The translations under genes and the position numbers were made by a program. Positions 240 through 50,624 of a DNA stretch of 50,924 nt are shown here, piece after piece. The DNA lies in the IMG/VR virus record IMGVR_UViG_3300036790_000288, positions 1 to 50,924 of that record. One strand, given 5' to 3'. The notes below the pieces were generated by a model. The model ran no database searches, was not told the DNA's origin, and saw only the letters and a list, made by a program, of their open reading frames with translations. Source of the stretch: a virus. Numbering within the stretch: position 1 is the first letter of the stretch; every line of letters begins with the position of its first letter.

Positions 240-454
240 TTATCGAGTGCAGGTGCAACCCAGACGCGCATCGCGTAGGCACCGCCAACCGGCCGCTACT
301 CCGCCGCGTTCGCAAAGACAGCCTGTCGCGCGCAAAGAACTGGCGGACGGAGGGTGAGGTTAAGTCCGCGATCTGCGCCGAATGGACTGCGCACCTTTGC
401 CTTCTTCGTCTGCGCGAACTCAAATTGATCTCTGCCGCGCCGTCTCCACGGTAA
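236..454 (+). CDS. Small arginine-rich protein (72 aa), unknown
   Basis: A GTG start at 236 overlaps the previous stop (GTGA). The product is basic, with many Arg and Lys residues and Cys at residues 5, 7 and 47; no family is recognised. An exact copy of the 11-bp palindrome GACAGCCTGTC lies inside the gene at 317-327. Overlap coupling supports translation, but the Arg-rich composition could also be a chance reading of GC-rich DNA. Confidence 0.45.
   Translation: MIIECRCNPDAHRVGTANRPLLRRVRKDSLSRAKNWRTEGEVKSAICAEWTAHLCLLRLRELKLISAAPSPR
317..327. promoter_or_regulatory. Palindromic operator-like site GACAGCCTGTC (copy 1)
   Basis: Exact copy of the phage-wide 11-bp palindrome, preceded by AAA as in most copies. 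It lies inside the gene at 236-454, about 195 bp before the immunity-like gene at 522, with no obvious promoter around it. Confidence 0.6.
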
Positions 455-463
455 GCAAAGCGT

Positions 464-500
464 CCGGCTGGCAGCCGGCAGCGGAGTACGTAAGCTCCGC
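464..500 (+). terminator. Tandem hairpins between two genes, possible attenuator
   Basis: Two perfect 6-bp hairpins lie back to back: CCGGCT/AGCCGG at 464-478 and GCGGAG/CTCCGC at 481-500, followed by a moderately T-rich stretch (GCTAATTCTTT). They occupy most of the gap between the genes ending at 454 and starting at 522. The T tract is too broken for a strong intrinsic terminator, so partial termination or attenuation before the immunity-like gene is the likelier role. Confidence 0.4.
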
Positions 501-521
501 GCTAATTCTTTGAGGTGACTC

Positions 522-731
522 ATGCTTGGTTTTCTGATGATGCTGGTTCTAATAGCCTCTGCTCTGGCGTTGTACTTCCTGCCCACCGGGGTTGCTCACG
601 CCCGCGCCCACTCCAAGATCGCCTCCATCTTCGTCCTGAACCTGTTTCTTGGATGGACCTTCCTATTTTGGATCGCTGCACTCGTGTGGGCGGTATCCGA
701 AAACAACGTCGTTACTGGCGAGAAAGTATGA
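522..731 (+). CDS. Superinfection immunity-like membrane protein (69 aa)
   Basis: The product matches the pattern of the Imm_superinfect family (T4 Imm-like): a first membrane segment at about residues 2-20, then a YFLPTGVAHARAH-type stretch, then NLFLGWTFLFWIAALVWAV as the second segment. Such proteins sit in the host inner membrane and can block DNA entry by a second phage, although many chromosomal homologues have no shown role. The ATG at 522 follows a GAGGTGA ribosome-binding site. In a temperate phage this would be a lysogen-expressed exclusion gene; that part is inference. Confidence 0.8.
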   Translation: MLGFLMMLVLIASALALYFLPTGVAHARAHSKIASIFVLNLFLGWTFLFWIAALVWAVSENNVVTGEKV

Positions 732-895
732 CTTTCGAGATCAGCCAGGACGACTATCTGCGGAAGGTGGTCGCGACCGTCCAGCGCGTCTGGAATTGGG
801 CCGATCAGCACGCCGACATCAAGAACAACGGCGAAGCCAACGACGCCATGATCGTCAAAGACATGATCGAAGACGAGTTAGGCGGTAAACCGTGA
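728..895 (+). CDS. Small acidic protein (55 aa), unknown
   Basis: The ATG at 728 overlaps the end of the immunity-like gene (ATGA). The product is acidic and probably helical (starts MTFEISQDDYLRK, ends DMIEDELGGKP), with no membrane segment or metal-binding motif. No family recognised. Its stop overlaps the GTG of the next gene, so it is one link in a translationally coupled chain. Confidence 0.65.
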   Translation: MTFEISQDDYLRKVVATVQRVWNWADQHADIKNNGEANDAMIVKDMIEDELGGKP

Positions 896-1050
896 CCTGC
901 TTATTCCCAGCCCTTATAATCCTGGCGAGCGTGTTCGGGGTGCGTGAAAAGTGCGGCCGGTGTAACGCTCGATCGCGCCAGCTCGCAGACCTCAGGCGCC
1001 GACGCAGTGACCGCCGCGTGGCTAACTCCATCGGCAGGGAAGCGAGATAA
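892..1050 (+). CDS. Small membrane-anchored basic protein (52 aa)
   Basis: A GTG at 892 overlaps the preceding TGA. The predicted product has a short hydrophobic N-terminus (residues 3-17, FPALIILASVFGV), a CGRC motif at about residues 21-24 and an Arg-rich tail. It resembles the many tiny N-anchored proteins of phages, but no family is recognised. Support comes from the start/stop overlap and the 4-base gap to the TPR gene. Confidence 0.5.
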   Translation: MTCLFPALIILASVFGVREKCGRCNARSRQLADLRRRRSDRRVANSIGREAR

Positions 1051-1054
1051 CCGA

Positions 1055-1579
1055 ATGTCGATACTCCAGATGCCGATATCCCCCGCCACCGAAACGCGCA
1101 TTGTGGCAATCTTCAACGAAGGCGTTGTCTTTGAAGATCAGGGTAGGCTAGACGAGGCGGCAGACTGCTATGAGCACGTGTTGCGCATCAATCCCAACCA
1201 CTGCTCAGCCCACATCAACCTGGGCACCGTATGCTACAACCGCAACCAGTTCGCGGACGCCATCTCGCACTATCGAAAGGCCGTCAAGGCCGATCCGCGC
1301 TCCCAACTAGCGCACTTCAACCTTGCAAATGCATTGGAAGAGACGCAGAACATTGCCAGCTCCATCAAGTCCTACGAAACAGCGCTGAGCCTGGATCCGC
1401 GCTACGCAGATGCCCATTACAATCTCGCGCGCATCCTCGAAAAGAAGGGCCGGCCGCGGAAGGCCATCAAGCACTGGCGCATCTACGTCAAGCTGGACCC
1501 CATCGGACCTTGGGCGAATGCCGCGCGCGGGCAGATCAAGAAGACACTCGCCAGGGACTGCCTATCCATCGTCGCCTAG
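1055..1579 (+). CDS. Tetratricopeptide repeat protein (174 aa)
   Basis: Four consecutive TPR units can be read at about residues 15-49, 50-83, 84-117 and 118-151, each with the family's pattern (NLG.., A...Y..A+, ..DP). There is no signal peptide and no catalytic domain, so it should act as a cytoplasmic protein-binding scaffold. TPR proteins are uncommon in phages this size and common in bacterial genomes, so acquisition from a host is plausible. The ATG at 1055 is chosen because it begins just after the previous gene and leaves the repeats intact. It converges on the next gene; both use TAG stops sharing CTAG at 1576-1579. Confidence 0.85.
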   Translation: MSILQMPISPATETRIVAIFNEGVVFEDQGRLDEAADCYEHVLRINPNHCSAHINLGTVCYNRNQFADAISHYRKAVKADPRSQLAHFNLANALEETQNIASSIKSYETALSLDPRYADAHYNLARILEKKGRPRKAIKHWRIYVKLDPIGPWANAARGQIKKTLARDCLSIVA

Positions 1580-2394: not shown

Positions 2395-2574
2395 CTACTT
2401 TCCTCCAGGTGCGCGCACGCACCTATGAACCTTGTGGGCCAAGCCATCGAGCCACTTGTGCCACTTCTCGTGAGTCTCTTTGTCCTGCGTCTGCACCGAC
2501 GCTCCGCAGATGCGGCAGGAGTAAAACGTGGTCGTGTCGCCCTGATTGCTCTGAGTCCAGATCGATTCTTCCAT
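2395..2574 (-). CDS. Small C2H2-type zinc-binding protein (59 aa)
   Basis: Two Cys (YSCRICG) and two His (ETHEKWH) form a C-x2-C-x12-H-x4-H pattern typical of a zinc-finger fold. The ATG at 2574 is used here; an alternative ATG at 2601 would add nine residues that read through the palindrome at 2578-2588 (KRQAV). Very short finger proteins of this type are frequent in phage genomes and have no settled role. The gene lies between the HTH regulator and the unrecognised 272-residue protein in one minus-strand run. Confidence 0.7.
   Translation of the reverse strand: MEESIWTQSNQGDTTTFYSCRICGASVQTQDKETHEKWHKWLDGLAHKVHRCVRAPGGK
2409..2422. promoter_or_regulatory. Palindrome GTGCG-N4-CGCAC (copy 1)
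   Basis: GTGCGCGCACGCAC lies at the end of the zinc-finger gene, 15 bases before the ATG of the minus-strand gene at 2394 and just upstream of its ribosome-binding site. Transcribed leftward it could form a 7-bp hairpin with a UGCG loop. One of five copies of this motif. Confidence 0.6.
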
Positions 2575-2577: not shown

Positions 2578-2588
2578 GACAGCCTGTC
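2578..2588. promoter_or_regulatory. Palindromic operator-like site GACAGCCTGTC (copy 2)
   Basis: Exact copy located between the stop of the HTH gene (2591) and the start of the zinc-finger gene (2574), where a ribosome-binding site would normally sit. No convincing Shine-Dalgarno sequence is present there, so a bound protein could interfere with the downstream gene. Confidence 0.65.
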
Positions 2589-2590: not shown

Positions 2591-2770
2591 TTATGCACCA
2601 TACGGCTTCAGCATCCAGGTGGCAATAGTGTGCCACGTATGCACGTCCATTCCCCTGCCGCGCTCAATGCGTCGAAGAGTGTGGGCCGGTATCCCAATCA
2701 ACGCGGCGGCATCGTTGATGCTCAGGTCCGAGAGCTTGCGCCAATTCAGCAGCACCGTATCGATATTCAT
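2591..2770 (-). CDS. Small Cro/XRE-type helix-turn-helix regulator (59 aa)
   Basis: The 59-residue product carries a helix-turn-helix of the XRE type at about residues 17-42: LSINDAAALIG, then IPAHTLRRIERG. There is almost nothing besides the DNA-binding domain, as in phage Cro proteins. It starts at ATG 2770 and diverges from the ERF recombination operon, whose promoter contains the GACAGCCTGTC palindrome. Another copy follows its own stop. That arrangement makes it a leading candidate for binding the palindrome, though this is inference; two other HTH proteins are also candidates. Confidence 0.8.
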   Translation of the reverse strand: MNIDTVLLNWRKLSDLSINDAAALIGIPAHTLRRIERGRGMDVHTWHTIATWMLKPYGA

Positions 2771-2835: not shown

Positions 2836-2864
2836 TTGACAATAATGACAGCCTGTCCTATCCT
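2836..2864 (+). promoter_or_regulatory. Early promoter with embedded operator, upstream of the ERF gene
   Basis: TTGACA at 2836-2841 and TATCCT at 2859-2864 are separated by exactly 17 bases, a strong sigma70-like match. The spacer contains an exact GACAGCCTGTC. A start of transcription near 2871 would leave a short leader with a GGAGG site before the ATG at 2891. A protein bound to the palindrome would cover the promoter. Confidence 0.8.
2847..2857. promoter_or_regulatory. Palindromic operator-like site GACAGCCTGTC (copy 3)
   Basis: Exact copy inside the 17-bp spacer of the promoter at 2836-2864. This is the clearest instance of the palindrome in an operator position. Confidence 0.8.
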
Positions 2865-4417: not shown

Positions 4418-4692
4418 TGGAAATGACACCCTGTCGCATCCCCTTCAGCGCCGCACTCGCGGCTTCAGCGTGGAGCGAGTACCTGAAGCGCTTCACCAAC
4501 GAAACGAACTGCACGCACTGCAAGCGCGAGTTCACCAACGACACCTTTGATCGCTGCTGGTATCGCTCCGAGGACTGCGAGTTTGGGATGGAGCCGCGCT
4601 GGTCAGATTCGATCACGCCAGTCATTGCGCAGCAGGGCTGGTTTTGCGGGGAAGAGTGCCGGGATGAGTATCTGGCGAAGGAGGCCGCGTGA
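4417..4692 (+). CDS. Cysteine-rich small protein, probable zinc binder (91 aa)
   Basis: Cysteine pairs CTHC at about residue 36 and CGEEC at about residue 77, with further Cys and His residues between, suggest one or two zinc sites. Family not recognised. The ATG at 4417 is coupled to the previous stop. The first codons contain GACACCCTGTC (4425-4435), one mismatch from the phage palindrome. Confidence 0.7.
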   Translation: MEMTPCRIPFSAALAASAWSEYLKRFTNETNCTHCKREFTNDTFDRCWYRSEDCEFGMEPRWSDSITPVIAQQGWFCGEECRDEYLAKEAA

Positions 4693-8670: not shown

Positions 8671-9330
8671 ATGAAGCCGTATTACGAAAAGGACGGGATC
8701 ACGATCTATCACGGCGACTGCCGAGAAACACTGCATCTTCTCGACTACGACGTGTTAGTGAGCGATCCGCCTTACGGGATAGGACACCCCACCGATTACG
8801 CAAAACGGGGTCGTTCCAACCTAGCTAATTGCTCGAACTATGCGCCAGTGCACGATGACGATAAGCCTTTTGATCCTGCGTTCTTGATTGATTCGCGGCA
8901 AGCGATACTATGGGGCGCAAACTACTACGCCGACAAGCTACCCACCTCGTCCGGCTGGCTAGTCTGGAACAAGGAAAGGCCGCACGAGTTAGATCAGGCC
9001 ACCTGCGAACTGGCGTGGACGAACTGCGTCAAGGGTGCAAGGGTGTTCAACCACCTGTGGCACGGGATGATACGCGCTAGCGAGAACGGGCCACTCGTCC
9101 ATCCTACGCAGAAGCCCATCGCCCTAATGCAGTGGACGCTCATCCTCAAATGGATTATTGACGGGACAGTATGCGATCCCTACATGGGTTCAGGAAGCAC
9201 GCTCGTGGCGGCAAAGAATCTTGGCCGCAAGGCAATCGGAATCGAGATCGAGGAAAAGTACTGCGAGATCGCAGCAAAGCGTCTCGCTCAAGGCGTACTG
9301 CATTTGGAGGCTACCAGTGGCGAGCGGTGA
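8671..9330 (+). CDS. DNA methyltransferase, beta-class (N4-cytosine or N6-adenine), 219 aa
   Basis: Catalytic motif IV, DPPYG, is at residues 32-36 and the AdoMet-binding motif I, DPYMGSGST, lies near residue 170. This order (IV before I) defines the beta class. The enzyme would transfer methyl groups from AdoMet to DNA amino groups. No restriction enzyme lies beside it, so it is probably an orphan methylase protecting phage DNA or marking sites. The ATG at 8671 has a GAGGAG site and matches the usual N-terminus (YYEKDGITIYHGD). Confidence 0.92.
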   Translation: MKPYYEKDGITIYHGDCRETLHLLDYDVLVSDPPYGIGHPTDYAKRGRSNLANCSNYAPVHDDDKPFDPAFLIDSRQAILWGANYYADKLPTSSGWLVWNKERPHELDQATCELAWTNCVKGARVFNHLWHGMIRASENGPLVHPTQKPIALMQWTLILKWIIDGTVCDPYMGSGSTLVAAKNLGRKAIGIEIEEKYCEIAAKRLAQGVLHLEATSGER

Positions 9331-9457
9331 GGGCAAGAAATGCCGGTTTTGTGGCCAGCCAATGAAGCCGAAGGGCATTAAGAAGCTGCCGAATGAGTAT
9401 GACCATGCGCAGGGTTGTCCGTATAGCAGAAAGGATGTGCCGAGTGGCGAGCGGTGA
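9317..9457 (+). CDS. Small zinc-ribbon protein (46 aa), paralogue of the gene at 14846
   Basis: GTG start at 9317 after TTGGAGG, overlapping the methyltransferase end. CRFCGQPMKPKG and YDHAQGCP supply C-x2-C and H-x3-C zinc ligands. The same core recurs at 14846-15046 with few changes, so the two are paralogues. No function is known to me; such mini-ribbons often modify larger host proteins. Confidence 0.75.
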   Translation: MASGEGKKCRFCGQPMKPKGIKKLPNEYDHAQGCPYSRKDVPSGER

Positions 9458-9728
9458 GATGAGATGTAAGTGCGGCAGAGAGATTATTCAAGGGCAATCC
9501 GGTAAGTGGTGGCACATTGGCATACCAGGCTGTAACGACGCCGAGCCAGCCACCTCGTCCGCCATTGAAGTAGCTCCACAGCCGGATATTCGAGGCTTAG
9601 CTGTCGAGTTGGTGGATGGTATTCACGGCTACACGATGGAGTATGCGCCTGATCCTCGGCGGCATAGGTCGCTCTATGACTGGGCAGAGGAGAAATTGCA
9701 CGCAGCGCTAGAGGGGAGCAAACCATGA
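9444..9728 (+). CDS. Small protein with N-terminal zinc knuckle (94 aa)
   Basis: The GTG at 9444 begins with the same 15 bases as the gene at 9317 (GTGGCGAGCGGTGAG), giving MASGE followed by MRCKCGR. A C-x-C motif and a later HIGIPGC supply possible zinc ligands. The middle contains IEVAPQP, one of a family of V-A-P repeats in this gene cluster. The C-terminal half looks like a small helical domain. Family unknown. Confidence 0.65.
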   Translation: MASGEMRCKCGREIIQGQSGKWWHIGIPGCNDAEPATSSAIEVAPQPDIRGLAVELVDGIHGYTMEYAPDPRRHRSLYDWAEEKLHAALEGSKP

Positions 9729-10096
9729 GTGGACGAGGCGGTATTTATCGCGGTCCCAATGGAGAGGAATTGTACGGGGATGGTCGCGAAGTCAGCCCCT
9801 CGGTAGCTCCAGGGGAAGCGCAGCGGGAGCCGACACCTCCCCAATGCGTGAAATGCAAGAAGCCGCTAGATGCCTATGGAAGTGTGCGCCGGTGCCCGAC
9901 TGACGGATTTCACTGCATTTGGTCGCCCGCCGTGCCCTCTGAAGTAGCCCCTAGCCGGGAACAGCGGCTTGAAGATGCGCTGCGGTTGGCTGAGCACAAG
10001 CTGGCACAGTTTATCGAAGGCCAATACAACTGGAAGCCGTACCCGTCTCTGCAAATAACACTTGAGTCGGTGCGCGACGCACTGGAGGCAAAGTAA
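9725..10096 (+). CDS. Small protein with zinc knuckle and VAPS repeats (123 aa)
   Basis: ATG at 9725 coupled to the previous stop. CVKCKKP and CPTDGFHC form a four-cysteine zinc ribbon at about residues 41-65. Two linker motifs, SVAPGE and EVAPSRE, flank it, and the last 45 residues form a helical domain (LEDALRLAEHKLAQFIEG). It resembles phage proteins of unknown role in accessory clusters. Confidence 0.7.
   Translation: MSGRGGIYRGPNGEELYGDGREVSPSVAPGEAQREPTPPQCVKCKKPLDAYGSVRRCPTDGFHCIWSPAVPSEVAPSREQRLEDALRLAEHKLAQFIEGQYNWKPYPSLQITLESVRDALEAK
9943..9955 (+). repeat. 13-bp repeat AGTAGCCCCTAGC, copy 1 of 3
   Basis: Identical 13-mers at 9943-9955, 10113-10125 and 10194-10206 all sit in the same reading phase and encode V-A-P-S, in two adjacent genes. 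Confidence 0.8.
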
Positions 10097-11979: not shown

Positions 11980-12354
11980 ATGGACAGCCTGGCATTTCCA
12001 AAGCCGAAGGACGCTAAAAGACAGCCTGTCGATGCGGTTGCTGTTCGGCCTGACGGGCGGGAGGTTTGCGATCTCAACACGTCCGCCGGCCGGCTGGCGT
12101 ACAAGAGCAGGACCGAAGAGATGCGCGTACGCCAGTACGGGATCTGTTGCCTCGAAGGCCATGCGCCGATGTGCCCCGGAGGGCTGCGCAAGGAAGACGC
12201 GACCTTCGAGCATGAGAACGGCCGCGGCGGCGGCAAGCGCGACGACCGTACCCGTCTCACCGATGGGCGCTGGATAAACGGCGCCGCCCACATGGCGTGC
12301 AATCAGTGGAAAGGGTCGGTGCGCATCGACTACAACCGGAGTTTTCAACGATGA
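11980..12354 (+). CDS. HNH-type endonuclease-like protein (124 aa)
   Basis: The C-terminal half has CCLEGHAPMC, FEHENGRG and HMACNQWKGS, a pattern of Cys zinc ligands with His and Asn typical of HNH/zinc-supported nucleases. The order His ... His-x3-Asn fits an HNH fold, but the first His context is unusual. It lies next to a VRR-NUC nuclease, so it may help process phage DNA. An exact GACAGCCTGTC palindrome is at 12020-12030, reading K-R-Q-P-V. Confidence 0.75.
   Translation: MDSLAFPKPKDAKRQPVDAVAVRPDGREVCDLNTSAGRLAYKSRTEEMRVRQYGICCLEGHAPMCPGGLRKEDATFEHENGRGGGKRDDRTRLTDGRWINGAAHMACNQWKGSVRIDYNRSFQR
12020..12030. promoter_or_regulatory. Palindromic operator-like site GACAGCCTGTC (copy 4)
   Basis: Exact copy, preceded by AAAA, 41 bases inside the HNH-type gene at 11980. 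No promoter is evident around it. Confidence 0.55.
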
Positions 12355-13164: not shown

Positions 13165-14388
13165 ATGGCTCGAAGACGGTACCAGCGGGGTCAGTTGATC
13201 CGCAGTGGAGACAACTGGTTAGGACGGTGGCGTGAGGATGTTGAAGACGACACCGGAGCAGTGAAACGGGTGCATAAGAAGGAGGTCATCGGCACCGTCG
13301 AAGACTTTCCAACGAAGCGGCTTGCGGAACGCGAATTGCAGCGCAGGCTCGAGCCAATCAACAACGTGGAGTACCGGCCGCAACGGCGCGTCACTTTCGA
13401 AGCGTTCTCGCAGAAGTGGCTGAAAGAGGTCTTGGTGCATCAGAAGCGGTCCAGCCAGTCCAGCGCGCGCAGTCATGTCCGGGTGCATCTTGTCCCGGCG
13501 TTCGGCGCGATGAGCCTGGCGGACATCCGCATGGAGCAGGTGCAGCAGTTCGTCACGAAATGTGCGAAATCTGCAAAAACAACAAAAAACGTTGTCGTCA
13601 CACTGATGTCCATGTGGTCGACCGCTCAGGCTTGGGGCTACGTCCAGCACAACCCGTTCCCCCGCGGCGCGTCTGGGAGGCTCCTGCTGAAGTTGCCGGC
13701 GGCCGCACCGGGTGAGACGTACCACTTCACTGTGGAAGAGGCTCTGGCGATCATCGACAAGGCTCAGGGACCGTGGAAGACGTTCTTCCGCATCCTGGCC
13801 GAGACGGGGATGCGGCCGGGCGAGTGTGCCGGGTTAAGGGTCGAAGATGTCGGGGAATGCAGCTTGCGGGTCGCACAATCGGTGTGGGGCCAGCAGGTGC
13901 AGACGCCGAAGTCGAAGGCCGGTGTGCGGACGTTCGCTATCTCGGCGACGCTGGAAAAGGAAATTGGAGAGGTGACTAGTGAAATGCATAGAGGTTGCAA
14001 TCGCAGCGATGTCGTTGGGGGTGGGTCTGTGCATGATCGTTCTGGGGATACTAGACTCCTCTTCACCACGGAGACCGGAAGACCGCTAAGCATGGACAAC
14101 TTTCGCCAGCGGGTGCTGAATCCAATCCTGGCAGAGTTGGGTATAGACAAGAAGCTGGAGCGGCTGAACATCGCACGCTGCGGCAACTACGCCTTCCGGC
14201 ACATGAACGCCACGCTCATGGACACCCTCAACACGCCCATGAAGACGCGGCAGAAGCGGCTGGGTCACGCGCAAATCGAGACCACGCTGAAACACTACAC
14301 GCACGCTATCGACGCGGACGACCGGATGGCAGCAGACCGGATCGGCGCGATCATGGCGTCCAAACAAGAGATGGAGGCTGTGCAATGA
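13165..14388 (+). CDS. int: Tyrosine recombinase, phage integrase (407 aa)
   Basis: An N-terminal arm-binding part (MARRRYQRGQLIR, then RWREDVEDDTG), a core-binding domain, and a catalytic domain with ETGMRPGECAGLR (first Arg), YAFRHMNATLM (second box; the usual first His is Tyr here) and LGHAQIETTLKHYTH (final His and nucleophilic Tyr) identify the family. It would insert the phage into the host by recombining attP with attB. A tRNA 3' segment 300 bases downstream is the probable core site. The start at 13165 is preferred because of its promoter and CAGGAG site. Confidence 0.95.
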   Translation: MARRRYQRGQLIRSGDNWLGRWREDVEDDTGAVKRVHKKEVIGTVEDFPTKRLAERELQRRLEPINNVEYRPQRRVTFEAFSQKWLKEVLVHQKRSSQSSARSHVRVHLVPAFGAMSLADIRMEQVQQFVTKCAKSAKTTKNVVVTLMSMWSTAQAWGYVQHNPFPRGASGRLLLKLPAAAPGETYHFTVEEALAIIDKAQGPWKTFFRILAETGMRPGECAGLRVEDVGECSLRVAQSVWGQQVQTPKSKAGVRTFAISATLEKEIGEVTSEMHRGCNRSDVVGGGSVHDRSGDTRLLFTTETGRPLSMDNFRQRVLNPILAELGIDKKLERLNIARCGNYAFRHMNATLMDTLNTPMKTRQKRLGHAQIETTLKHYTHAIDADDRMAADRIGAIMASKQEMEAVQ

Positions 14389-14663
14389 AGAAAATTGTGA
14401 TCCCGGAGGGAATGCTGAAAGCGGCATACGAGCCATTCGAGGAGGAGTACGAGTTTTCGTGGACTGAAATGTACACCCGGAAAACCCTCGAAGCCGCGCT
14501 ACGCTGGCTGTCGGAGAATCCCATTATTCCCACCGACCAAAAGGCATGCGAACTTCTCGATGCTTACGGGCACCGAGGCTACACGTTTGGACAGTGGCAG
14601 CGCCGCATGTTTGATTCTGTGCCCGAGATGTGCCCTGTAAATGAAACGGCTCAGAGCCTGTAA
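14385..14663 (+). CDS. Small protein coupled to the integrase (92 aa)
   Basis: ATG at 14385 overlaps the integrase stop (ATGA). The product is acidic at first (PFEEEYEFSW) and helical later (FGQWQRRMFDSV). It does not show an excisionase-type winged helix that I can recognise, although its place between integrase and attP fits a recombination accessory factor. The end of the gene lies inside the terminator hairpin. Confidence 0.7.
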   Translation: MKKIVIPEGMLKAAYEPFEEEYEFSWTEMYTRKTLEAALRWLSENPIIPTDQKACELLDAYGHRGYTFGQWQRRMFDSVPEMCPVNETAQSL

Positions 14664-14676
14664 CTCTAAGCCGTTT
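14644..14676. terminator. Long hairpin terminator after the integrase operon
   Basis: AAACGGCT (14644-14651) pairs with AGCCGTTT (14669-14676), and inside it AGAG pairs with CTCT across one mismatch, giving a 12-pair stem with a 7-base loop. The stem starts with AAA and ends in TTT, so it could stop transcription in either direction. It insulates the integrase genes from the attachment site. Confidence 0.7.
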
Positions 14677-14692
14677 AGTATCAGTAATTTGC

Positions 14693-14741
14693 TGGTTGCG
14701 GGGGTAGGATTTGAACCTACGACCTTTGGGTTATGAGCCCA
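14693..14741 (-). other. attP: attP: 3' half of a tRNA-fMet(CAT) gene
   Basis: Read on the minus strand, 49 bases run from GGGCTCATAACCC (anticodon arm with CAT anticodon) through GGTTCAAATCC (T-arm) to CCCCCGCAACCA (acceptor end with CCA). Three consecutive G-C pairs in the anticodon stem and the CCCCCGCAACCA end are hallmarks of initiator tRNA. The 5' half (acceptor and D-arm) is absent, so this is not a working tRNA. A tRNA 3' segment beside an integrase is the classic attP layout; insertion would restore the host gene. Confidence 0.85.
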
Positions 14742-14771
14742 TAGATTTTGACGATTTAAAATGCTATCTCG

Positions 14772-14799
14772 TTGACTCTATTGCACATGGTCTCATAAT
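14772..14799 (+). promoter_or_regulatory. Promoter upstream of the zinc-ribbon gene at 14846
   Basis: TTGACT at 14772-14777 and CATAAT at 14794-14799 with a 16-base spacer. It lies between attP and the gene at 14846, so after integration it would stay at one prophage end. Confidence 0.55.
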
Positions 14800-16011: not shown

Positions 16012-16778
16012 GCTGCCTCCTTCTGCTTGTTCTTGCTGCCTTTAGGCCTCCCGCGGACAATGATGATGCCGTCAGGAATGGAGATCCTGGTGGCTGTGAC
16101 GCTCCCTCCAACGGCCATGGTCTGCATGTACCATCCGATGACTCTCTTCAGGTATTGCCGGCGCTCGGCGCTGGTCTTCAGCCCACCCTCACGGTCGAAG
16201 TGGATGAGGGAGTTGGTCGCCATTTTCTCCGACATCGCCAGGTCTTTCGTGAGCCCCTTCTTGCGGCGCTGCTTACGCTCCTCCAAAAGCTTTCCGTTTA
16301 ACTCCTCCAGGTACTTGGCGGCTTCTTTCTCCGTGTTCACAGGCAGTAGCGGCATCGCTCGAACAGCGTTGCGGATGTCGCCGAGGGCTGCGGTGGCGAT
16401 TCGATGGAACTGACCAATGACATCCTGTCCGACAGCGGTGATTTGCTTCAGGATCGGATTCGGGATGGTGGCAGCCAGTTCGGCAAATGCCTCCTGCTTT
16501 CTCTGTATGGTGCGCTGGTGGTCGAGGGGATATAGCTTACCAAGGTAATCCCTCATCTGCATCTCTTCGCCCTCTAATAGCTGCTGGGCTTCGGTCAGCT
16601 TCATCAACTCGCCAAACTCGCCGAGTTGCTTCATCCCACGGAATTGCTGGACATCCGAGGTGATCGTGAGCAGAGCGTCCTGCTTCTTGCGGTTGAGAGC
16701 TATCCATCCGGGGGTATCCTCCAACCCCTCTACGAAGACAGCGATAACTCCTGGCTCCGAGCCCTTTTCTATTTTCAT
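16008..16778 (-). CDS. Helical DNA-associated protein with C-terminal AT-hook (256 aa)
   Basis: ATG at 16778 after GGAGGG. The first third is beta-rich, the middle long and helical (LTEAQQLLEGEEMQMRDYL, KYLEELNGKLLEERKQ), and the C-terminus carries RGRPKGSKNK, the AT-hook signature that inserts into the minor groove of AT-rich DNA. The control region just upstream is unusually AT-rich, so self-binding is plausible. It diverges from a ribbon-helix-helix protein. A role in lysogeny, segregation or silencing is only inference. Confidence 0.75.
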   Translation of the reverse strand: MKIEKGSEPGVIAVFVEGLEDTPGWIALNRKKQDALLTITSDVQQFRGMKQLGEFGELMKLTEAQQLLEGEEMQMRDYLGKLYPLDHQRTIQRKQEAFAELAATIPNPILKQITAVGQDVIGQFHRIATAALGDIRNAVRAMPLLPVNTEKEAAKYLEELNGKLLEERKQRRKKGLTKDLAMSEKMATNSLIHFDREGGLKTSAERRQYLKRVIGWYMQTMAVGGSVTATRISIPDGIIIVRGRPKGSKNKQKEAA

Positions 16779-16965: not shown

Positions 16966-17184
16966 GTGAAGACAGTATCTGTAAGAGCGAAATCCGAAAA
17001 CGTGGCGCGGTTGCGCTCGGTTGCGGAATACATACCCGGAAGTAGCGTCAACGCGCTGGTAGACATGGCTATCAGGCTGTTTTTGGATGTCGAGGCTCCG
17101 GCCTACATCGCGGCGTTCGAGGACGCCCGGGCCAAACTGGAGCGCGCAGAAAGACAGCCTGTCAGAAGTCAGGGGATGCGGTAA
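16966..17184 (+). CDS. Ribbon-helix-helix (CopG-like) regulator (72 aa)
   Basis: GTG at 16966 after TTGGAGGG. The N-terminus KTVSVRAKSENVARLRSVAE gives a beta strand followed by helices, with SSVNALVDMAIRLFLD as the second helix, the usual pattern of small RHH repressors that bind as dimers to repeated operators. Repeats of CAATTGAGGCA in the region upstream are natural targets. The last codons encode E-R-Q-P-V from an exact copy of the other palindrome (17153-17163). Confidence 0.65.
   Translation: MKTVSVRAKSENVARLRSVAEYIPGSSVNALVDMAIRLFLDVEAPAYIAAFEDARAKLERAERQPVRSQGMR
17153..17163. promoter_or_regulatory. Palindromic operator-like site GACAGCCTGTC (copy 5)
   Basis: Exact copy at the convergence of the RHH gene and the nuclease gene at 17162, so not at a promoter. 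A bound protein here could act as a roadblock between converging transcription units. Confidence 0.55.
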
Positions 17185-23280: not shown

Positions 23281-26200
23281 TTACGTGGTGCTCTGCGGTA
23301 TCCCGCTCACTGCCTTAAATGGGCGAATAGTCTTGTACCCGCCCGCTCTGCCCCATTCTCCAATTGCCACTTCGATGTCGTCCGCAAGCACCGTAAACGG
23401 CGTTCCTCCAGCGTCCGCCGTCCACTGCAGGAGTCGGAACTTCATACTCTTTCCGCCGGATACCGCAGGCAGCCATGCGAAGTACTTTGCCGCGGCGCCA
23501 CCGCTAGATGGGATTGTGAGGCCAAAGGACGCGCCCTGATCCGTGCCGATCGTCAGCGTCACCGGGGTGGTGCTTAGGTAGGCAAAGCGGAGCCACGGGA
23601 TGTGCAGCCAGCCATCCAGGCCGTAGGAGAGTTCCGCTGTGCGCCATGCTGCAATCGGCTCCGGGTACTCCGTCCAGTCCGGCTGCCACTCTTTCAGCCA
23701 GTTTCCAGAGCCAAGCGGGAAGCTGAGCACCAGGCCCAAGTCCTGCACGTCTGCGTTTGGGGATGCGGTGAAGTCGAACAGGTAGTCATTCTCGCCTGCC
23801 TGCGGTCCTACCGTACTCGGCGCCGCGCCGGTGATGGCCGTCTGGAAGCGGTTCTTCCAGAATGACACCGTGACAGCCACCGCGGCCGCAGCGCGCAGGA
23901 AGACCCCTCCAACGCGTTTCAGGGTGCGCGCGGAACCGCCGTTCTGGCTCGAAGTGACTACGATGGCAGAGCTGACCTCCGTGCCCGTGGAATCGAACGC
24001 TCGAATGGTGCCATCAGCGCAAGCGACAAGGGTCTGATTCACCACCCCGGCAGCGCAGGCGTGGCAATTCACCAGCGGCAGGTAAACGTCGACTGTCCAG
24101 CCCTTGGCTTCCATGTCGTAGCAGAGCGTTCTTTGCGTGTTGGACACGTCCTGGTAGTTGTAGAAGACGTATCCCGGCACCATGGTGATGGTCTGCGCCG
24201 CCACGTTCGTATCGTCCGGCGGAAAGACAGTCTGTCCGCCGATATTCACGTTCGACGGAGCCTGGCCGCCCTGTGGGAAAAGGTTGCGGATAGACTCGGA
24301 GATGATCTTTTCCGGCCCCCCGCCTTGCGACAGGCAAATGCCGTCCTTCGCCCTCCACGCATTCAAAGAGCCCAGGGCGCCAAGGGCGTAGCGCATGTAC
24401 AGGCCTCGCGTTGCGGCCGATTGCACGAGGGTCCACTGCTGGCCCTGCGTTCCGGTCACCGCCGCCACGGCATCTGAGAAGTTCGGGTAGACGAGCCAGA
24501 ATCGCTCTGTGGAAAAGACTGTGGACAACTCGGAAGTTACGGTCCCGTTCTGCAGCGCCTCCGAGGCGCTTGTCACGAACTGCCGATTGGTGTCCGGGGC
24601 AGAGTCGAAGTTGTTGCCCATCGACCACACCAGATCCCCAGGATTCAACGGGTCGAGCCCGAAATAGAAGCTGCCGGCATTGTCGGGCGTCGGGCCCCAG
24701 ATGACCGGACTCGGTTGCTGCGCAAGCGTTGGGGCGGTGATCTCCCAGTTCAAATTCGCGCCCGTGGGAGGGAAGCTGATCGTCAGAAAGCCCGTCACCG
24801 GATCGATCGCGGTAGAGTAGACCTTCATCGCCGTGGTCGATGTTGGCCGGTTGTAGAGCAGATAGGCGACCTGAGAACCGGTCCCGTTGTCGATCAGGAT
24901 GTCTGTCCCCGGCAGCCAGCGCTTATTGAAGACGTCTCCCGCATCCCAGGTGCAAGCTCCATTTGCCCCTACCGTCAACGTGCCTTTGCGGGGAAGATCG
25001 ATCGATGGAAAGGGCTCGTAGTTGTCAAAGCTCAGTTGCGGATTGTTGGCAACCTGCAAGTCTGTCAGCGTGTCCGTGAAGGACGGCGAAGAGTTCAGCA
25101 CGCGCCCAACGAAAGTAAAATTGTTCAGCCCCGGCGTCTGTCGGTAGAAGTTGATGCTCTTTACCTGCGGATCGGTGGAAGACGTGGCCACGGCCGTAGC
25201 GGAGAGAGTCGTGTAGTAGATCGTTGCGGTGAAGCTGTTGATGAACGACCGATCCGAGCTCGATACTTCGACCGTGGCAATCTGGAAGGCGATGCCGAAG
25301 GTCGAGTCGTTGACGATGTCCGGCGTTAGGACCGTGCCCCACGAATCGGAATTTCCGCCCTGCAGCGCCGTGGTCGGAGACTGGGTGTTTTGAATGCCCG
25401 GCGCCTTCACCTGGCCGATGATGTTGCCCTGATAGAACAAGGCCACGCCGGCGATGATGCCCGTCCCGGCAAACTGCCCCAGCCAGTTCATCGCCGCCTG
25501 CACGCCGTCGATCGTGACCCCGGCGGGAATACTGAATCCAAAGTCATGGGCGAGCACGTAGTCTGTGATCGTCCCCGGCGGAACGCTTCCCACCGTGCGG
25601 AGTTGGCTCCCGCTCACCTGGTACTGTGCCGAGTTGAAAGTGATATTTGTTGAAGTGGCGGACAGGGTAGCAGTGACGGAGGTCTGCGGGACAGTCTGCG
25701 GTGCCGACTCAGGGGAGGGATTGGACTCTGCACCTTCGTCCGTCCAGTAGGTGTACCGATAGGAGACCCAGTTCGGCCCACCACCGCTGGAGACTGTCAC
25801 CCCCGGAGCGTCCTGCGGCTCCATCACGCCGGTCTTGTAGATCGTCCCATCCGAACGCACTTTCACCATTCCGGTGACCGGGCCGGTGTAGCTCCCGTAG
25901 CCGTTTGCTGTCACCGCCAGCGATGAGTCAGCGACATAGCACCATGGCTGCGGGCTGTCCGGCGGGGTGTAGGGAAGATAGCTCAACGGGAGGCCAGAGA
26001 GACCCGTCGCCACCTGCGCGACATTGACGTACAGCTTCCCATTGGCGCCGTTGACGTAGACGAAGCTGGGCGCCGACTTGTAGGGGTCGTTCATCCGCAC
26101 AAGAGAGGTGACCCCGGATGAAATGGCCGAGGCGAGCAGATTGGCTCCCAGCGGGGCGCGCGCGGTCAGTCTTCCGCCAAGGATTTTGCGCGCGTTTTGC

Positions 26201-28281: not shown

Positions 28282-29598
28282 CTACTCCTTACCTGCGAAA
28301 CGGGGTTGAGCTTCTTCCTGCCGATCCACTGGAGGCCGGATAGTTGTTGCAAGGATGCCGCTCTCGCGCAAACGCGCGTTCTGCCGCATCGCAAGTTTAA
28401 TAAATTCCTGGTGTAAAGTCATGGATTCTTTGAACTCCGCGCCGCCCATCTTGAACAGCGCCAGGTGCTGGCCTTCATCGAGAATCGCGTCCATCACGTC
28501 CCGCGGCACCTGAATCTCCGAGTCTGGATCTGTCGGAACCGGGGCGTTTCCCACCACCATCAGCGACAAAGACAGGGTGTCCGTTGGCGTCGGGCTGACC
28601 GCGTAAAGATCGATCCCGCCCACCACTATTTCAGGGAAGGCACCGGCTCTAGACTGCCACTCGTAGTTGGTCCTGTCCGCCCCGGCCAGGGGTTGCGTAT
28701 CCACTGCCACGCCGTTGATGAATGCTTGCAAGAGCCAGGGCATGTGCTGCATCAGCTTCAGGAACTCCATGTAACGCTGCCGGCAGTACGCCGCGCGCTG
28801 GACGTCCTTGCCCTCCTGCTCTTTTGACAGGATGTCGGCCATCGCTCCAAACTTGAGACCCCACATCCAGTCATCCGGCATCAGCAGCGGGGAAGCGGTG
28901 GGTGGGTCGAAGTCCGCCCCTCCGGCCATGCCCAGCACCTGCAGCGCGGACGGGACGTTCACCTTGGTGTCCAGCGTCACCGTCTGCGGGGGTGAGCCAA
29001 TCACATCCCAGCGCAAGGGATTGGCTACCGTCTGCGCGTACTGCGGGGTGAAGTATTGAAAGGTCCGAGAGTCGCCACGCTGCAGAGTGACAGGCTGTCC
29101 AGAAGTCGGCACCCACCGGCATCTCCGCACGTCCAGCACGAGGTCGGTCAGGTTCACCAAGTTGGTATTCGGCGTCATCGACAGCGAGGACTCCGCCAAG
29201 TTGCACGCCGCCGCCTGAAGGATCTCGTTTCTCCTGCGGGAGCAGGCCTGCGACAGGTCGGTGATGGAGAACTGGTCGGTCCCTGTCCACGTCCCTCCGG
29301 TGGCAGGTTCGATCAGGTGGTATTCGATCAGGGTGTACACGTCCACATCGGTCAGCGTCGGTTGGCGCGGCGATCCAGTGCCGTTTGCCGCTAGCCAGTT
29401 GCCGGTCAGCGGAGGATTCAGGGTCAGGGGGTAGGGCGTCGCCCAGTAGGCCGTCAGCGCGTTCCAGACTCGAAGGGCTTCGGTGATGTACAAGCCAAGC
29501 TCAGTGGAGGTCCAGAAGACGTTCGACTCATCCCCCAGCCGCAGGGCGAGTTCCGCGATCGCTTGTTCGAATGTGAGCCAGGAAAAGGGGCTAGGCAT
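28282..29598 (-). CDS. Tail or head-tail adaptor protein (438 aa)
   Basis: The N-terminus (FTFEQAIAELALRLGDE-like start, then ELGLYITEALRVWN) resembles adaptor/connector proteins that begin with a helical bundle. The rest is mixed, with beta-rich middle and helical end (ESMTLHQEFIKLAMRQNARLRESG). Function inferred from position. It contains an exact GACAGGCTGTC at 29089 and the variant GACAGGGTGTC at 28571. Confidence 0.65.
   Translation of the reverse strand: MPSPFSWLTFEQAIAELALRLGDESNVFWTSTELGLYITEALRVWNALTAYWATPYPLTLNPPLTGNWLAANGTGSPRQPTLTDVDVYTLIEYHLIEPATGGTWTGTDQFSITDLSQACSRRRNEILQAAACNLAESSLSMTPNTNLVNLTDLVLDVRRCRWVPTSGQPVTLQRGDSRTFQYFTPQYAQTVANPLRWDVIGSPPQTVTLDTKVNVPSALQVLGMAGGADFDPPTASPLLMPDDWMWGLKFGAMADILSKEQEGKDVQRAAYCRQRYMEFLKLMQHMPWLLQAFINGVAVDTQPLAGADRTNYEWQSRAGAFPEIVVGGIDLYAVSPTPTDTLSLSLMVVGNAPVPTDPDSEIQVPRDVMDAILDEGQHLALFKMGGAEFKESMTLHQEFIKLAMRQNARLRESGILATTIRPPVDRQEEAQPRFAGKE
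29089..29099. promoter_or_regulatory. Palindromic operator-like site GACAGGCTGTC (copy 6)
   Basis: Exact copy in the middle of the adaptor-like gene, far from any start codon and without promoter elements. It may be an accessory or roadblock site. Confidence 0.45.
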
Positions 29599-39535: not shown

Positions 39536-39564
39536 ATAAAAACACCAAAGTAATTCGGTGTCAA
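39536..39564 (-). promoter_or_regulatory. Promoter of the head-assembly operon
   Basis: On the minus strand TTGACA (39564-39559) and TTTTAT (39541-39536) are separated by exactly 17 bases. The -35 overlaps the TGA stop of the gene at 39561. Transcription would start near 39529 and run leftward through the basic peptide, scaffold and capsid genes, giving them expression independent of the terminase promoter. Confidence 0.65.
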
Positions 39565-39761
39565 TTGTTTTGTGGAGCCACTTCAACAGCCTGCTCTTTT
39601 TCGAGGAACGCTATGGAGGTTACGCCGCCATTTCCGGGTAGCACAATCCTGATCTCCCCCGGCACGCGCTGGCTCTTCACGAACGTCAGCACTTCAGCCA
39701 CATCGGCCTTCGGGGAGAACTCGTTCACTGCGCGGGCGAATCCTTTTTTCTTGAAATCCAT
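39561..39761 (-). CDS. Small regulated protein with its own promoter (66 aa)
   Basis: ATG at 39761. The product (MDFKKKGFARAVNEFSP start) looks like a small alpha/beta domain with EIRIVLPGNGGVTSIAF. Family not recognised. It is the one structural-region gene directly downstream of an operator-bearing promoter, so it is probably controlled by the palindrome-binding protein. Confidence 0.65.
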   Translation of the reverse strand: MDFKKKGFARAVNEFSPKADVAEVLTFVKSQRVPGEIRIVLPGNGGVTSIAFLEKEQAVEVAPQNN

Positions 39762-39776: not shown

Positions 39777-39804
39777 ATTAAAATGACAGGCTGTCGTTTA
39801 TCAA
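39777..39804 (-). promoter_or_regulatory. Promoter with embedded operator before the gene at 39761
   Basis: On the minus strand TTGATA (39804-39799) and TTTAAT (39782-39777) flank a 16-base spacer that contains an exact GACAGCCTGTC. This mirrors the ERF promoter at 2836. It overlaps the end of the portal gene. Confidence 0.7.
39785..39795. promoter_or_regulatory. Palindromic operator-like site GACAGGCTGTC (copy 7)
   Basis: Exact copy centred in the spacer of the promoter at 39777-39804, the second case of an operator inside a sigma70-type promoter. Confidence 0.8.
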
Positions 39805-45803: not shown

Positions 45804-46204
45804 GCCTTCACCTTCACTTTTCTCCGGGCTTTTCCGCCACGGCCGTCCGAGCCTTCAACGGTCAGCTCCATTCCTCGCGCCTGGCGCTCCTCGTTCGGGT
45901 CACGGCTCTCGAAGTGGGAGGTTTCCTGCGCTATTTCTGTCTCTTCGGCCACTGCGTCAAGGTCGGCAGCGCTCGGCAAATCGCCCTTCTGCGCGTATCC
46001 CCATGCCAGCGTCTCTCTCGCTTCCGTCGCGGTCTCTCCCGACCTCCGCAGCCTGATTTTCACCTGAAAATCGACCGCAAACGCCGCGTATTCCTTGTTC
46101 CCGCTCAGGGGTGACAAACCGCGCATCCTAGCCTGCAACTCCTCGGTGACGATGTGGATGATTTCCGAAGCCTCAAAGGGCACATTTATCGCTATTTCAG
46201 GCAC
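45800..46204 (-). CDS. Unrecognised protein (134 aa)
   Basis: Starts MPEIAINVPFEASEIIH. First half mixed alpha/beta with FAVDFQVKIRLRRSGE; second half charged and possibly disordered, ending GGKARRKVKVKA. It overlaps the HTH gene by eight bases. No signature; co-transcribed with the packaging genes. Confidence 0.6.
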   Translation of the reverse strand: MPEIAINVPFEASEIIHIVTEELQARMRGLSPLSGNKEYAAFAVDFQVKIRLRRSGETATEARETLAWGYAQKGDLPSAADLDAVAEETEIAQETSHFESRDPNEERQARGMELTVEGSDGRGGKARRKVKVKA

Positions 46205-46454
46205 TCTGCTCCTCCTTTTTGAACATCATGCAATCCGTCATCGGGAAGGGCATCCCGGACGGCGTGAAGCCTATTCCGTGCTCGCTGCACAGCTCCGCAA
46301 GGGCCTGTCTTTTGGATGCTTTTGGCACCGCGCGGCCCTTTTCCCAGCCGGTCAGCGTGTTGGCGCAAATGTCGAGCCGGGTTGCGAAGGACTTTGAGTC
46401 CATGCCCAGAAGGGCCCTTATCACCCGGATTCTCTGAGCATCGTCAAGGATCAC
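46197..46454 (-). CDS. XRE-type helix-turn-helix regulator (85 aa)
   Basis: GTG at 46454 follows AAGGAG by six bases and overlaps the previous stop (GTGA). Residues about 10-60 form an XRE HTH: RVIRALLGMDSKSFATRL, then CANTLTGWEKGRAVPKA, the recognition part being NTLTGWEKG. Phage regulators of this size often act as late or lysogeny switches. An exact palindrome (46497-46507) lies 43 bases upstream, and the second genome motif (46516-46529) lies just beyond, so this gene may regulate or be regulated through both. Confidence 0.8.
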   Translation of the reverse strand: MILDDAQRIRVIRALLGMDSKSFATRLDICANTLTGWEKGRAVPKASKRQALAELCSEHGIGFTPSGMPFPMTDCMMFKKEEQSA

Positions 46455-46759
46455 GCCCAACTCCTTAGCAGTTCTTCAGCCTTCGCCTTCGCGGCTGACA
46501 GGCTGTCATTTTCAGGTGCGCGCACGCACTCGGCATCTGTGGTCCGGGAGGCAGGATTCGATTCCTGCAACGGGGCGCTACTCGCGTATAGCTGATCCCC
46601 ACCAGCACTCTGGCGCGTCTCTATTGCACCACTCCCCGTCTTTTTGGGCCTCGAACTGCGCCACAGCGGATTCTGACACTGCGGGCACTTCTTAGGCACC
46701 GCTTTGCGCGGGGTCCAAGTATGACCGCATGTCGAATGTGGGCAGGTTCTCGGCTCCAT
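46451..46759 (-). CDS. Zinc-ribbon protein (102 aa), paralogue of the gene at 49681
   Basis: CPHSTCGHTWTPRKAVPKKCPQC-type motif (two Cys pairs around a Trp) forms a zinc ribbon at residues 4-30, followed by LWRSSRPKK. The gene at 49681 has the same layout. The ATG at 46759 is only seven bases from a TACGAT -10 box, with TTGCGA 17 bases further, so the transcript is probably leaderless. It overlaps the HTH gene's GTG. Confidence 0.7.
   Translation of the reverse strand: MEPRTCPHSTCGHTWTPRKAVPKKCPQCQNPLWRSSRPKKTGSGAIETRQSAGGDQLYASSAPLQESNPASRTTDAECVRAPENDSLSAAKAKAEELLRSWA
46497..46507. promoter_or_regulatory. Palindromic operator-like site GACAGGCTGTC (copy 8)
   Basis: Exact copy 43 bases upstream of the HTH gene start (46454) and within the C-terminal part of the zinc-ribbon gene. 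Ten bases further is the second genome motif. Confidence 0.65.
46516..46529. promoter_or_regulatory. Palindrome GTGCG-N4-CGCAC (copy 5)
   Basis: GTGCGCGCACGCAC lies inside the zinc-ribbon gene, nine bases from copy 8 of the main palindrome. The only place where both motifs lie side by side. Confidence 0.6.
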
Positions 46760-46766
46760 CGGGGTA

Positions 46767-46795
46767 ATCGTAACCGCTCGCCTGATAAATCGCAA
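46767..46795 (-). promoter_or_regulatory. Late operon promoter, probably leaderless
   Basis: On the minus strand TTGCGA (46795-46790) and TACGAT (46772-46767) are 17 bases apart, and only seven bases separate the -10 from the ATG at 46759. The transcript should begin at or within a base or two of the start codon and run through the HTH and packaging genes. Confidence 0.65.
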
Positions 46796-47331: not shown

Positions 47332-47360
47332 GCGACAGGCTGTCATTTACGCGCTAGTAT
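47332..47360 (+). promoter_or_regulatory. Promoter with operator for the exported protein gene at 47367
   Basis: TAGTAT (47355-47360) ends six bases before the ATG, and the best -35 match is GCGACA (47332-47337), 17 bases away. The palindrome (47334-47344) covers the -35 and the start of the spacer, so a bound protein would block it. The transcript would be leaderless. Confidence 0.6.
47334..47344. promoter_or_regulatory. Palindromic operator-like site GACAGGCTGTC (copy 9)
   Basis: Exact copy three bases after the small RNA terminator, covering the -35 region of the promoter for the gene at 47367. Confidence 0.75.
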
Positions 47361-47366: not shown

Positions 47367-47882
47367 ATGAAGACCCTTCGCCTCTCGCTCACACTCCTCT
47401 CGTTTCTCGCACTCGGATGGCTCTCCGTGGGCTGCGCACACGCCCAGGTGGCACCCACAAATCACCAGGTCGCGCTGAGTTGGACCGCGCCGGCCGCTTC
47501 GGGGTCGTGGGCAGGATGCACCGCAAGTGCGCCATGCACCTACGTGGCATCGCGGATCACGCTGGCGACAGGCACGACGTCCTGCCCTGCGGCGAACGTG
47601 ACCACGCCCAACTATGCCCCTTTGAATACGGCATCTCCAGCGTCGACCACCACGTACACGGACACGAGCGCTTCGGGACTGACCACCTGCTACATCGTGC
47701 AGACGGAGCAGGGAAGTGCGGTCAGCGGTCCATCGAACGTGGCTGGGCCTTTCGTAGTGCCTGCGAACCCTCTGGCGCCATCGCTGGCCGGTAGCGAGGC
47801 CAAGGTGCAGTCGATGCCGCTACCCACGGGCGACGCTGCTGCGCCAATCCTTACCGCAAGACTCGAAGGCCGTATCAGGTAG
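47367..47882 (+). CDS. Exported fibronectin-like protein with signal peptide (171 aa)
   Basis: The first ~27 residues (MKTLRLSLTLLSFLALGW, then GCAHA) are a Sec signal; AHA-QV is a plausible cleavage site and the SVGC stretch is a weak lipobox. The mature part looks like a fibronectin type III or Ig-like domain (HQVALSWTAP, STTTYTDTSASG, CYIVQTEQGS) with four cysteines. It probably acts outside the cytoplasmic membrane. Its own operator-bearing, leaderless promoter and isolation on the plus strand suggest expression in the lysogen, perhaps as a surface-altering gene (inference). Confidence 0.75.
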   Translation: MKTLRLSLTLLSFLALGWLSVGCAHAQVAPTNHQVALSWTAPAASGSWAGCTASAPCTYVASRITLATGTTSCPAANVTTPNYAPLNTASPASTTTYTDTSASGLTTCYIVQTEQGSAVSGPSNVAGPFVVPANPLAPSLAGSEAKVQSMPLPTGDAAAPILTARLEGRIR

Positions 47883-49670: not shown

Positions 49671-49680
49671 TCGATCCCTC

Positions 49681-49983
49681 CTACCTCTTCGAGCAACCCT
49701 TTTGATGGCCGCTCAAACTCCCGCATTCACCGCAGCCCGAACTTTTCCCAGGCGCCGCAGCTTTCTCCGATCGCGGCTGTTCCCGGACGGCTCTCCCGTC
49801 ACCGGGTACACCTTCCGATTGCGCCGCCTGATTGCCTGTCTCCGTAACCGCTCCTGCTCGCTGCACTTCATGCACCCTCTCCTTACGCCAGTACGGACTC
49901 CTGCACGCAGGGCACTGCACCGGCGGCTCAACCTTCCGCGCCAGCCACTTGTGCTCGCATCGCAGGCACTCTCGCTGAGTCAT
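49681..49983 (-). CDS. Zinc-ribbon protein (100 aa), paralogue of the gene at 46451
   Basis: CLRCEHKWLARK...CPACRSPYWRKER contains two Cys pairs around a Trp, the same ribbon as at 46451. The C-terminus adds CGECGSLSGHQKGC, a second knuckle. A TATAAT box sits six bases before the ATG with a TG extension, so the transcript should be leaderless. First gene of the minus-strand operon 49983-48104. Confidence 0.7.
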   Translation of the reverse strand: MTQRECLRCEHKWLARKVEPPVQCPACRSPYWRKERVHEVQRAGAVTETGNQAAQSEGVPGDGRAVREQPRSEKAAAPGKSSGCGECGSLSGHQKGCSKR

Positions 49984-49989
49984 GAACTG

Positions 49990-49998
49990 ATTATATCA
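49990..49998 (-). promoter_or_regulatory. Extended -10 promoter of the operon at 49983
   Basis: On the minus strand TGATATAAT ends six bases before the start codon. No convincing -35 hexamer lies 16-18 bases upstream, as expected of an extended -10 promoter. A palindrome copy lies 42 bases beyond. Confidence 0.6.
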
Positions 49999-50036
49999 TC
50001 AACTTATCGGAAATGCATAGCCTATAAACATAGTGC

Positions 50037-50047
50037 GACAGCCTGTC
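50037..50047. promoter_or_regulatory. Palindromic operator-like site GACAGCCTGTC (copy 10)
   Basis: Exact copy about 54 bases upstream of the start at 49983 and about 42 bases beyond the -10 box, a distance more like an activator or distal operator than an occluding one. Confidence 0.6.
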
Positions 50048-50111
50048 TTCTCTAGGTGGGAATGTGGGTGGAAAAGGAGTCTCAGCCTCCGCAGGGCCCT
50101 ATGCAGGACAA

Positions 50112-50372
50112 CTAACCGCCGGCCGGATCGGAGCCAACAGGCAGCCCGGGCGCCAAGTCAACCGGCGCGGTGCAGAGATGGGAGGCCAGCAGCAGCACGG
50201 TGCGCGTGGGGGTGGTCGCACCTGTAAGCCATTGGGAAATAGCAGGTTGACTCACTCCGAGACTACAGCCAATGGACGCAAGGCGCTCCCCTGCAGAACG
50301 GCGCAACTCGATCCAGGCGCAGAAGTCTTCTCGAGTGAGAGCGGGGCGGAAACTCGTGCGAAGGCCAGCCAT
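50112..50372 (-). CDS. Helix-turn-helix regulator (86 aa)
   Basis: Residues 16-50 form an XRE-type HTH: FCAWIELRRSAGERLASI, then GVSQPAISQWLTGATTPT (SQPAISQWLTG as recognition helix). ATG at 50372. Placed between the two operons that meet near the circle junction, with a palindrome 39 bases upstream of its start, it is a good candidate for a lysogeny switch. The C-terminus is short and carries no peptidase domain. Confidence 0.75.
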   Translation of the reverse strand: MAGLRTSFRPALTREDFCAWIELRRSAGERLASIGCSLGVSQPAISQWLTGATTPTRTVLLLASHLCTAPVDLAPGLPVGSDPAGG

Positions 50373-50624
50373 CCGATAAGCCCCTTATGAAGTGGTGATG
50401 CACACAGAATGACAGGCTGTCGAATCGTGGGGCAAGTGGAAATGCGGCGGCATTACCTGAGTAATGGAGCATCGTGATAATTATCTATGATTATCGCAAA
50501 AGGTGAGAGATATTGAGTGGGCAGGAACTTAAGCAGGGGTGGTACTCACCGCGGGCACTGCCCCATCTTTTTACCTTACAGCCGTTTATGAGGCGCTTAG
50601 CCAAGCGTCGAATGGAGAAGAGAA
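50373..50624. other. Control region before the junction operon (252 bp)
   Basis: No gene is convincing here. It holds palindrome copy 11 at 50411-50421, an AT-rich segment with GATAATTATC (50475-50484) followed by GATTATC, and a GGGC/GCCC hairpin with a short T run near 50553-50572. Operators, an origin or a promoter for the gene at 50625 could lie here. Confidence 0.45.
50411..50421. promoter_or_regulatory. Palindromic operator-like site GACAGGCTGTC (copy 11)
   Basis: Exact copy 39 bases upstream of the minus-strand HTH gene at 50372. Copies 8 and 11 stand at similar distances before two HTH genes. Confidence 0.65.

Follow-up and report, generated by a model that had tools for sequence, protein, structure and literature searches.

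A dispersed palindrome as the putative operator of a multi-site phage regulator, with isolated relatives that infect Acidobacteriota

The phage genome and its palindrome

The window, by which we mean the whole stretch of DNA analysed, comprises 50,924 bases and is a virus record. Bases 1-219 recur at 50706-50924 with one mismatch. This near-exact direct terminal repeat marks the record as a genome that is complete or nearly so, circular or terminally redundant, with a unit of ~50.7 kb. Protein family matches identify an integrase and ERF/YqaJ recombination genes, which indicate a temperate phage, and the host is probably a soil Acidobacteriota bacterium. According to family assignments, the early operon specifies an ERF annealing protein, a YqaJ-type exonuclease and a helicase. 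The phage accessory region includes a gene for a TPR-repeat protein of 174 aa (1055-1579). Genes were called with a simple caller that missed gene 49681-49983; this gene was included manually in the test of intergenic placement described below.

Scattered over this genome are copies of the palindrome GACAGSCTGTC (Table 1). The original prediction listed eleven exact copies, all of which we confirmed, and a twelfth is gained when any centre base is allowed (GACAGTCTGTC at 24226, with T in the centre). Arm-word counts give an expectation of 0.07 copies, which agrees in order of magnitude with the ~0.02 put forward earlier. The comparison with shuffled genomes that had been proposed as a check gave a mean of 0.07 copies and a maximum of one in 150 Markov-3 shuffles, and the copy number also lies above a dinucleotide null. 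The palindrome reached a log10 p of -22.7, as compared with -5.7 for the best palindrome with 5-bp arms of any sequence in the shuffles.

Were the copies due to chance, codon use or insertion of a repeat, they should be matched by null models or share their surroundings. Within clear genes we found five copies where 0.11 were expected, and none of 1000 synonymous-codon shuffles with peptides held fixed reached five. This excess means that the copies inside clear genes are under selection as DNA and are not a by-product of coding. For 24226, relatives encode other residues and lack the site; for 29089, relatives differ by two codons (two extra) and likewise lack it. With the dinucleotide, Markov-3 and synonymous-codon nulls all exceeded, and with only ~14 bp common to copies whose surroundings are unrelated, an origin by chance, codon use or repeat insertion is refuted, and we assign it next to no probability.

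A second dispersed palindrome, GTGCGCGYACGCAC, occurs in five exact copies (2409, 7955, 23267 in reverse, 36973 and 46516; 0.09 expected for the arms), most of them between genes or close to the start of one. It has no exact copy in four relatives and is possibly the operator of another regulator.

Table 1. Putative operators, the predicted early promoter and the two favoured candidate binders in the window
Feature	Position	Strand	Context
Putative operator AAA-GACAGCCTGTC	317..327	.	within weak small ORF 236-454 (+)
Putative operator AAT-GACAGCCTGTC-TTT	2578..2588	.	gap between HTH gene 2591-2770 (-) and gene 2395-2574 (-)
XRE-type HTH protein, 59 aa, candidate binder	2591..2770	-	divergent from early promoter; sites 2578 and 2847 on either side
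Predicted early promoter TTGACA-17-TATCCT	2836..2864	+	operator 2847-2857 in spacer; upstream of ERF/exonuclease/helicase operon
Putative operator AAT-GACAGCCTGTC	2847..2857	.	early promoter spacer
Probable variant operator AAT-GACACCCTGTC	4425..4435	.	within + gene
Putative operator AAA-GACAGCCTGTC	12020..12030	.	intragenic, 11980-12354 (+)
Probable variant operator AAT-GACATCCTGTC	16419..16429	.	within 16008-16778 (-)
Putative operator AAA-GACAGCCTGTC	17153..17163	.	convergence of genes 16966-17184 (+) and 17162-18085 (-)
Putative T-centred operator AAA-GACAGTCTGTC	24226..24236	.	intragenic, 23281-26295 (-)
Probable variant operator AAA-GACAGGGTGTC	28571..28581	.	intragenic, 28282-29598 (-)
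Putative operator AGT-GACAGGCTGTC	29089..29099	.	intragenic, 28282-29598 (-)
Putative operator AAT-GACAGGCTGTC	39785..39795	.	promoter spacer (- strand), upstream of gene 39561-39761 (-)
Putative operator GACAGGCTGTC-ATT	46497..46507	.	3'-end region of zinc-ribbon gene 46451-46795 (-); ~40 bp upstream of HTH gene 46197-46460 (-)
Putative operator GACAGGCTGTC-ATT	47334..47344	.	over -35 region of gene 47367-47882 (+)
Putative operator copy	50037..50047	.	~54 bp upstream of gene 49681-49983 (-)
XRE-type HTH protein, 86 aa, candidate binder	50112..50372	-	sites 50037 and 50411 on either side
Putative operator AAT-GACAGGCTGTC	50411..50421	.	~39 bp upstream of HTH gene 50112-50372 (-)

The extended site and its placement

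The site extends beyond the palindrome, as AAW-GACAG-N-CTGTC. AAA or AAT flanks 11 of the 24 half-sites, against a background of ~1.8% per half-site, and stands on at least one side at 10 of the 12 sites (p 2e-13), so that the A/T-rich triplet previously described on one side of most copies is real; neither a bare hairpin nor a codon effect would produce such a flank. Seven weaker matches to GACA-N3-TGTC are present, of which 4425, 16419 and 28571 also carry AAA or AAT and are probably genuine variant operators. Because three of the seven share the flank, there are likely ~15 real sites in the genome. The flank is missing from the other four (7976, 28826, 34849 and 41746), which coding sequence may have produced by chance. 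The near copies proposed originally therefore fared differently: 24226 is a full copy, 4425 and 28571 are retained as probable variants, and 41746 is dropped. AAT-flanked 16419 (GACATCCTGTC) was absent from the earlier list.

Placement is not random with respect to genes, as six of the 12 copies are fully intergenic compared with 9.8% of 11-mer positions (p 5e-4). We could also confirm that two copies lie in the spacers of predicted sigma70-type promoters and one over a -35. The promoter around 39785 is on the - strand (TTGATA-16-TTTAAT, score 14.6), both it and the early promoter around 2847 outscore more than 99% of random windows, and the -35 that 47334 overlaps, that of gene 47367-47882, is weaker. 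Gene 49681-49983 has a TATAAT just ahead of its ATG, and site 50037 is upstream of, and outside, this clearest -10. Five copies (317, 12020, 17153, 24226 and 29089) are distant from any recognisable promoter. Orientation of the sites with transcription was considered and rejected: read on the sense strand, the AAW flank precedes the core at ~5 sites and follows it at 4, the centre base is C on the sense strand in 8 of 11, and these tallies are not significant.

Separately, a -10-like hexamer precedes the start codon by 6-7 bases in genes 2591-2770, 47367-47882 and 49681-49983, a spacing that suggests leaderless transcripts; the relatives' homologues of the 2591 gene look alike in this respect.

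Related phages and candidate binders

The relatives examined were nine phage genomes or contigs, several of them fragments, with G002, G004, G059 and Tunturi_1 spanning 50-63 kb. Four relative contigs are largely syntenic with the present phage, with terminase identities of 67-75%, and G004 was found via its major capsid protein. More distant relatives share the terminase or the major capsid protein and include the isolated Tunturiibacter phages Tunturi_1 and Tunturi_2, whose host is an Acidobacteriota bacterium (PMC11924767). GACAGnCTGTC has zero copies in all nine relatives, several of which are fragments whose lack of it counts as partial evidence, and the positional conservation that the original prediction had set as a test is thus absent, even from the four largely syntenic contigs. 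Given the strength of the other evidence, we read this absence as a sign that the network is lineage-specific rather than unreal; among the nine relatives compared, the putative operator network is private to the phage studied.

A search for equivalent palindrome networks in the relatives, including close ones in which two of the HTH proteins have homologues, yielded nothing comparably strong. G001 has five copies of ATTGnCAAT, one of them in the homologous immunity region, with weak support. This contig (L011) also carries repeat arrays of 57-bp period at 9000-9900 and 13977-14939, at least the second of which encodes repetitive proteins. Among viral contigs, the 17-bp extended site is present in four records with one copy each, and TTGACA plus the site in 63 stretches, with one or two copies in each of the 49 source records checked; these matches are probably mostly chance. 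In L035/L074 and L080 the site lies divergent from an unrelated HTH gene. We found no prophages in genome contigs, and nothing relevant to the motif in a literature search.

With regard to the protein that would bind these sites, three HTH proteins had been named as candidates, and two of them, 50112 and 2591, remain the best. HTH 50112-50372 matches the DNA-binding domain of the P22 C2 repressor weakly and has a poor AlphaFold model (pLDDT 54). No homologue was found in the relatives examined, and since these are free of the motif the protein fits the phylogenetic pattern. HTH 2591-2770 is modelled by AlphaFold as a good four-helix HTH with weak XRE hits as its closest matches in fold, and its position in the immunity region suits the role. 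Three relatives have a homologue divergent from a TTGAxx-N17/18-TAxxxT early promoter (read by eye), and recognition-helix residues differ between phages; as these relatives lack the motif, promoter position is conserved and the operator is not. Searches of viral contigs and annotated phage records for relatives of HTH 50112 and HTH 2591 found none. From sequence, we judge the chance that HTH 50112 is the binder to be not far short of even, regard HTH 2591 as only slightly less likely, and consider a role for the RHH-like protein 16966-17184 or another protein rather unlikely but not negligible.

RHH proteins prefer short, close-set half-sites such as GACAG-N-CTGTC, and a site lies in or near both the RHH-like gene and the gene for the third HTH protein, XRE protein 46197-46460. 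One of these two could thus be the binder in place of the favoured HTH proteins. Against this, no confident family match backs the RHH-like assignment, and the four close relatives, none of which has the motif, all keep 46197 at 44-57% identity; this conservation, together with its location in the late/terminase operon, makes it a weak candidate. We consider a binder from this pair fairly unlikely.

Proposed regulation and known dispersed-operator systems

Taken together, the copy excess, flank, intergenic enrichment, promoter spacers and intragenic selection make it probable, in our view, that AAW-GACAG-N-CTGTC serves as operator for a single DNA-binding regulator, encoded by the phage and repressing from multiple sites. 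The single-regulator network of the original prediction is thus well supported. The sites differ from stoperators of the L5 type in being palindromic and unoriented. The regulator would most likely be a small XRE-type repressor acting as a dimer. Bound in the spacers at 2847 and 39785 or over the -35 at 47334, it would block initiation, with the ERF/exonuclease/helicase early operon as the chief target. Sites adjoining HTH genes (50411, 50037, 2578 and 2847) would provide autoregulation and cross-regulation, and those within genes or gene gaps would probably stall elongating RNA polymerase as roadblocks or sequester the regulator, which would keep the prophage silent. The operator reading draws support from the two HTH genes bracketed by sites and from the divergence of HTH gene and early operon, which recurs in three relatives; against it stand the absence of the motif from relatives, the five promoter-distant sites and the position of 50037 outside the clearest -10.

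Temperate phages commonly recruit host regulators, and the overlap of sites with sigma70-type promoters would be consistent with their belonging to one, for example the SOS repressor of the Acidobacteriota host. However, relatives probably infecting the same phylum have zero copies, and the presence of five of 12 copies inside clear genes would be unusual for a host SOS-type regulon, so we hold this to be improbable. The dispersal of the sites, into genes as well, and the want of obvious promoters at the five distant copies might instead point to DNA mechanics, with the sites serving as partition/centromere elements, replication iterons, or recombination or packaging signals. This we consider quite improbable, as the sites are enriched in intergenic DNA and promoter spacers, show no clustering of the iteron or parS kind, and are accompanied by no ParAB pair among the proteins scanned, which were part of the gene set.

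Returning to a phage-encoded repressor, one possible history is that this lineage recently gained XRE regulator 50112-50372 and built ~15 operators, including some in structural genes, while its syntenic sisters have none. The operators would have arisen by point changes and small indels. We offer this history tentatively and think it rather doubtful; if true, it would be a case of dispersed-operator immunity at an early stage of its evolution, in which palindromic sites act as unoriented roadblocks.

Dispersed operators of a single repressor are an already known kind of system, represented by Cluster A mycobacteriophages, P1 and R4-type phages. In Cluster A phages such as L5 and Bxb1, as here, one short site recurs genome-wide, with some copies in early promoters and others off promoters, and site sequence differs between related phages (PMC6550527). 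The L5-type site is recognised by a protein monomer that has two DNA-binding domains (PMC9283540). It is an asymmetric site of 13-14 bp, oriented with transcription and present 20-30 times per genome, mostly in small intergenic gaps. In the present phage copies are also many (12 exact and three probable variants), but the core is a perfect 5-1-5 palindrome with a usually one-sided flank, the sites are unoriented and number 12-15, the candidate proteins are of 59-86 aa, and at least five copies lie in clear genes next to the enriched intergenic half. In view of the palindromic core and the non-significant orientation, we do not place the sites among L5-type stoperator systems. Features of dispersed operators in general are found, namely a site in the early lytic promoter (2847, upstream of ERF) and phage DNA-binding proteins encoded beside sites, the candidate binders 50112-50372 and 2591-2770.

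The P1 C1 repressor silences lytic genes through 22 dispersed operators with a 17-bp asymmetric sequence, ATTGCTCTAATAAATTT (PMC8546580). The present sites resemble these in being dispersed operators, putatively of one repressor, and differ in being palindromic. The nearest palindromic precedent for dispersed sites is phiC31, whose repressor recognises conserved inverted repeats. Host phylum and site sequence are unrelated to those of R4 and phiC31, and the candidates here are small XRE-type proteins, unlike the phiC31/R4-type repressor. The R4-type repressor of Streptomyces phages targets an early promoter as well as numerous sites throughout the genome (PMC10276819). The weak P22 C2 match of 50112, putative operators between -35 and -10, and an HTH gene divergent from the early operon recall P22 C2 and lambda CI, yet the site set is genome-wide and the candidates are without a C-terminal oligomerisation domain. 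Classical systems of the P22/lambda type have about six clustered operators.

Tunturi_1 (L096, L104; PP887698.1) has a dispersed 18-bp palindrome of its own, GAGTCCAATATTGGACTC, at nine places with at most two mismatches, mostly intragenic, which hints that the habit of dispersed sites may be wider in phages of Acidobacteriota. A handful of well-studied systems exemplify multi-site phage repression. The present phage, the closest isolated relatives of which have Acidobacteriota hosts, would add to them a case in which the site is palindromic and the candidate regulators are very small; as the site is missing from syntenic relatives, it provides a setting in which to test the origin of dispersed operator networks.
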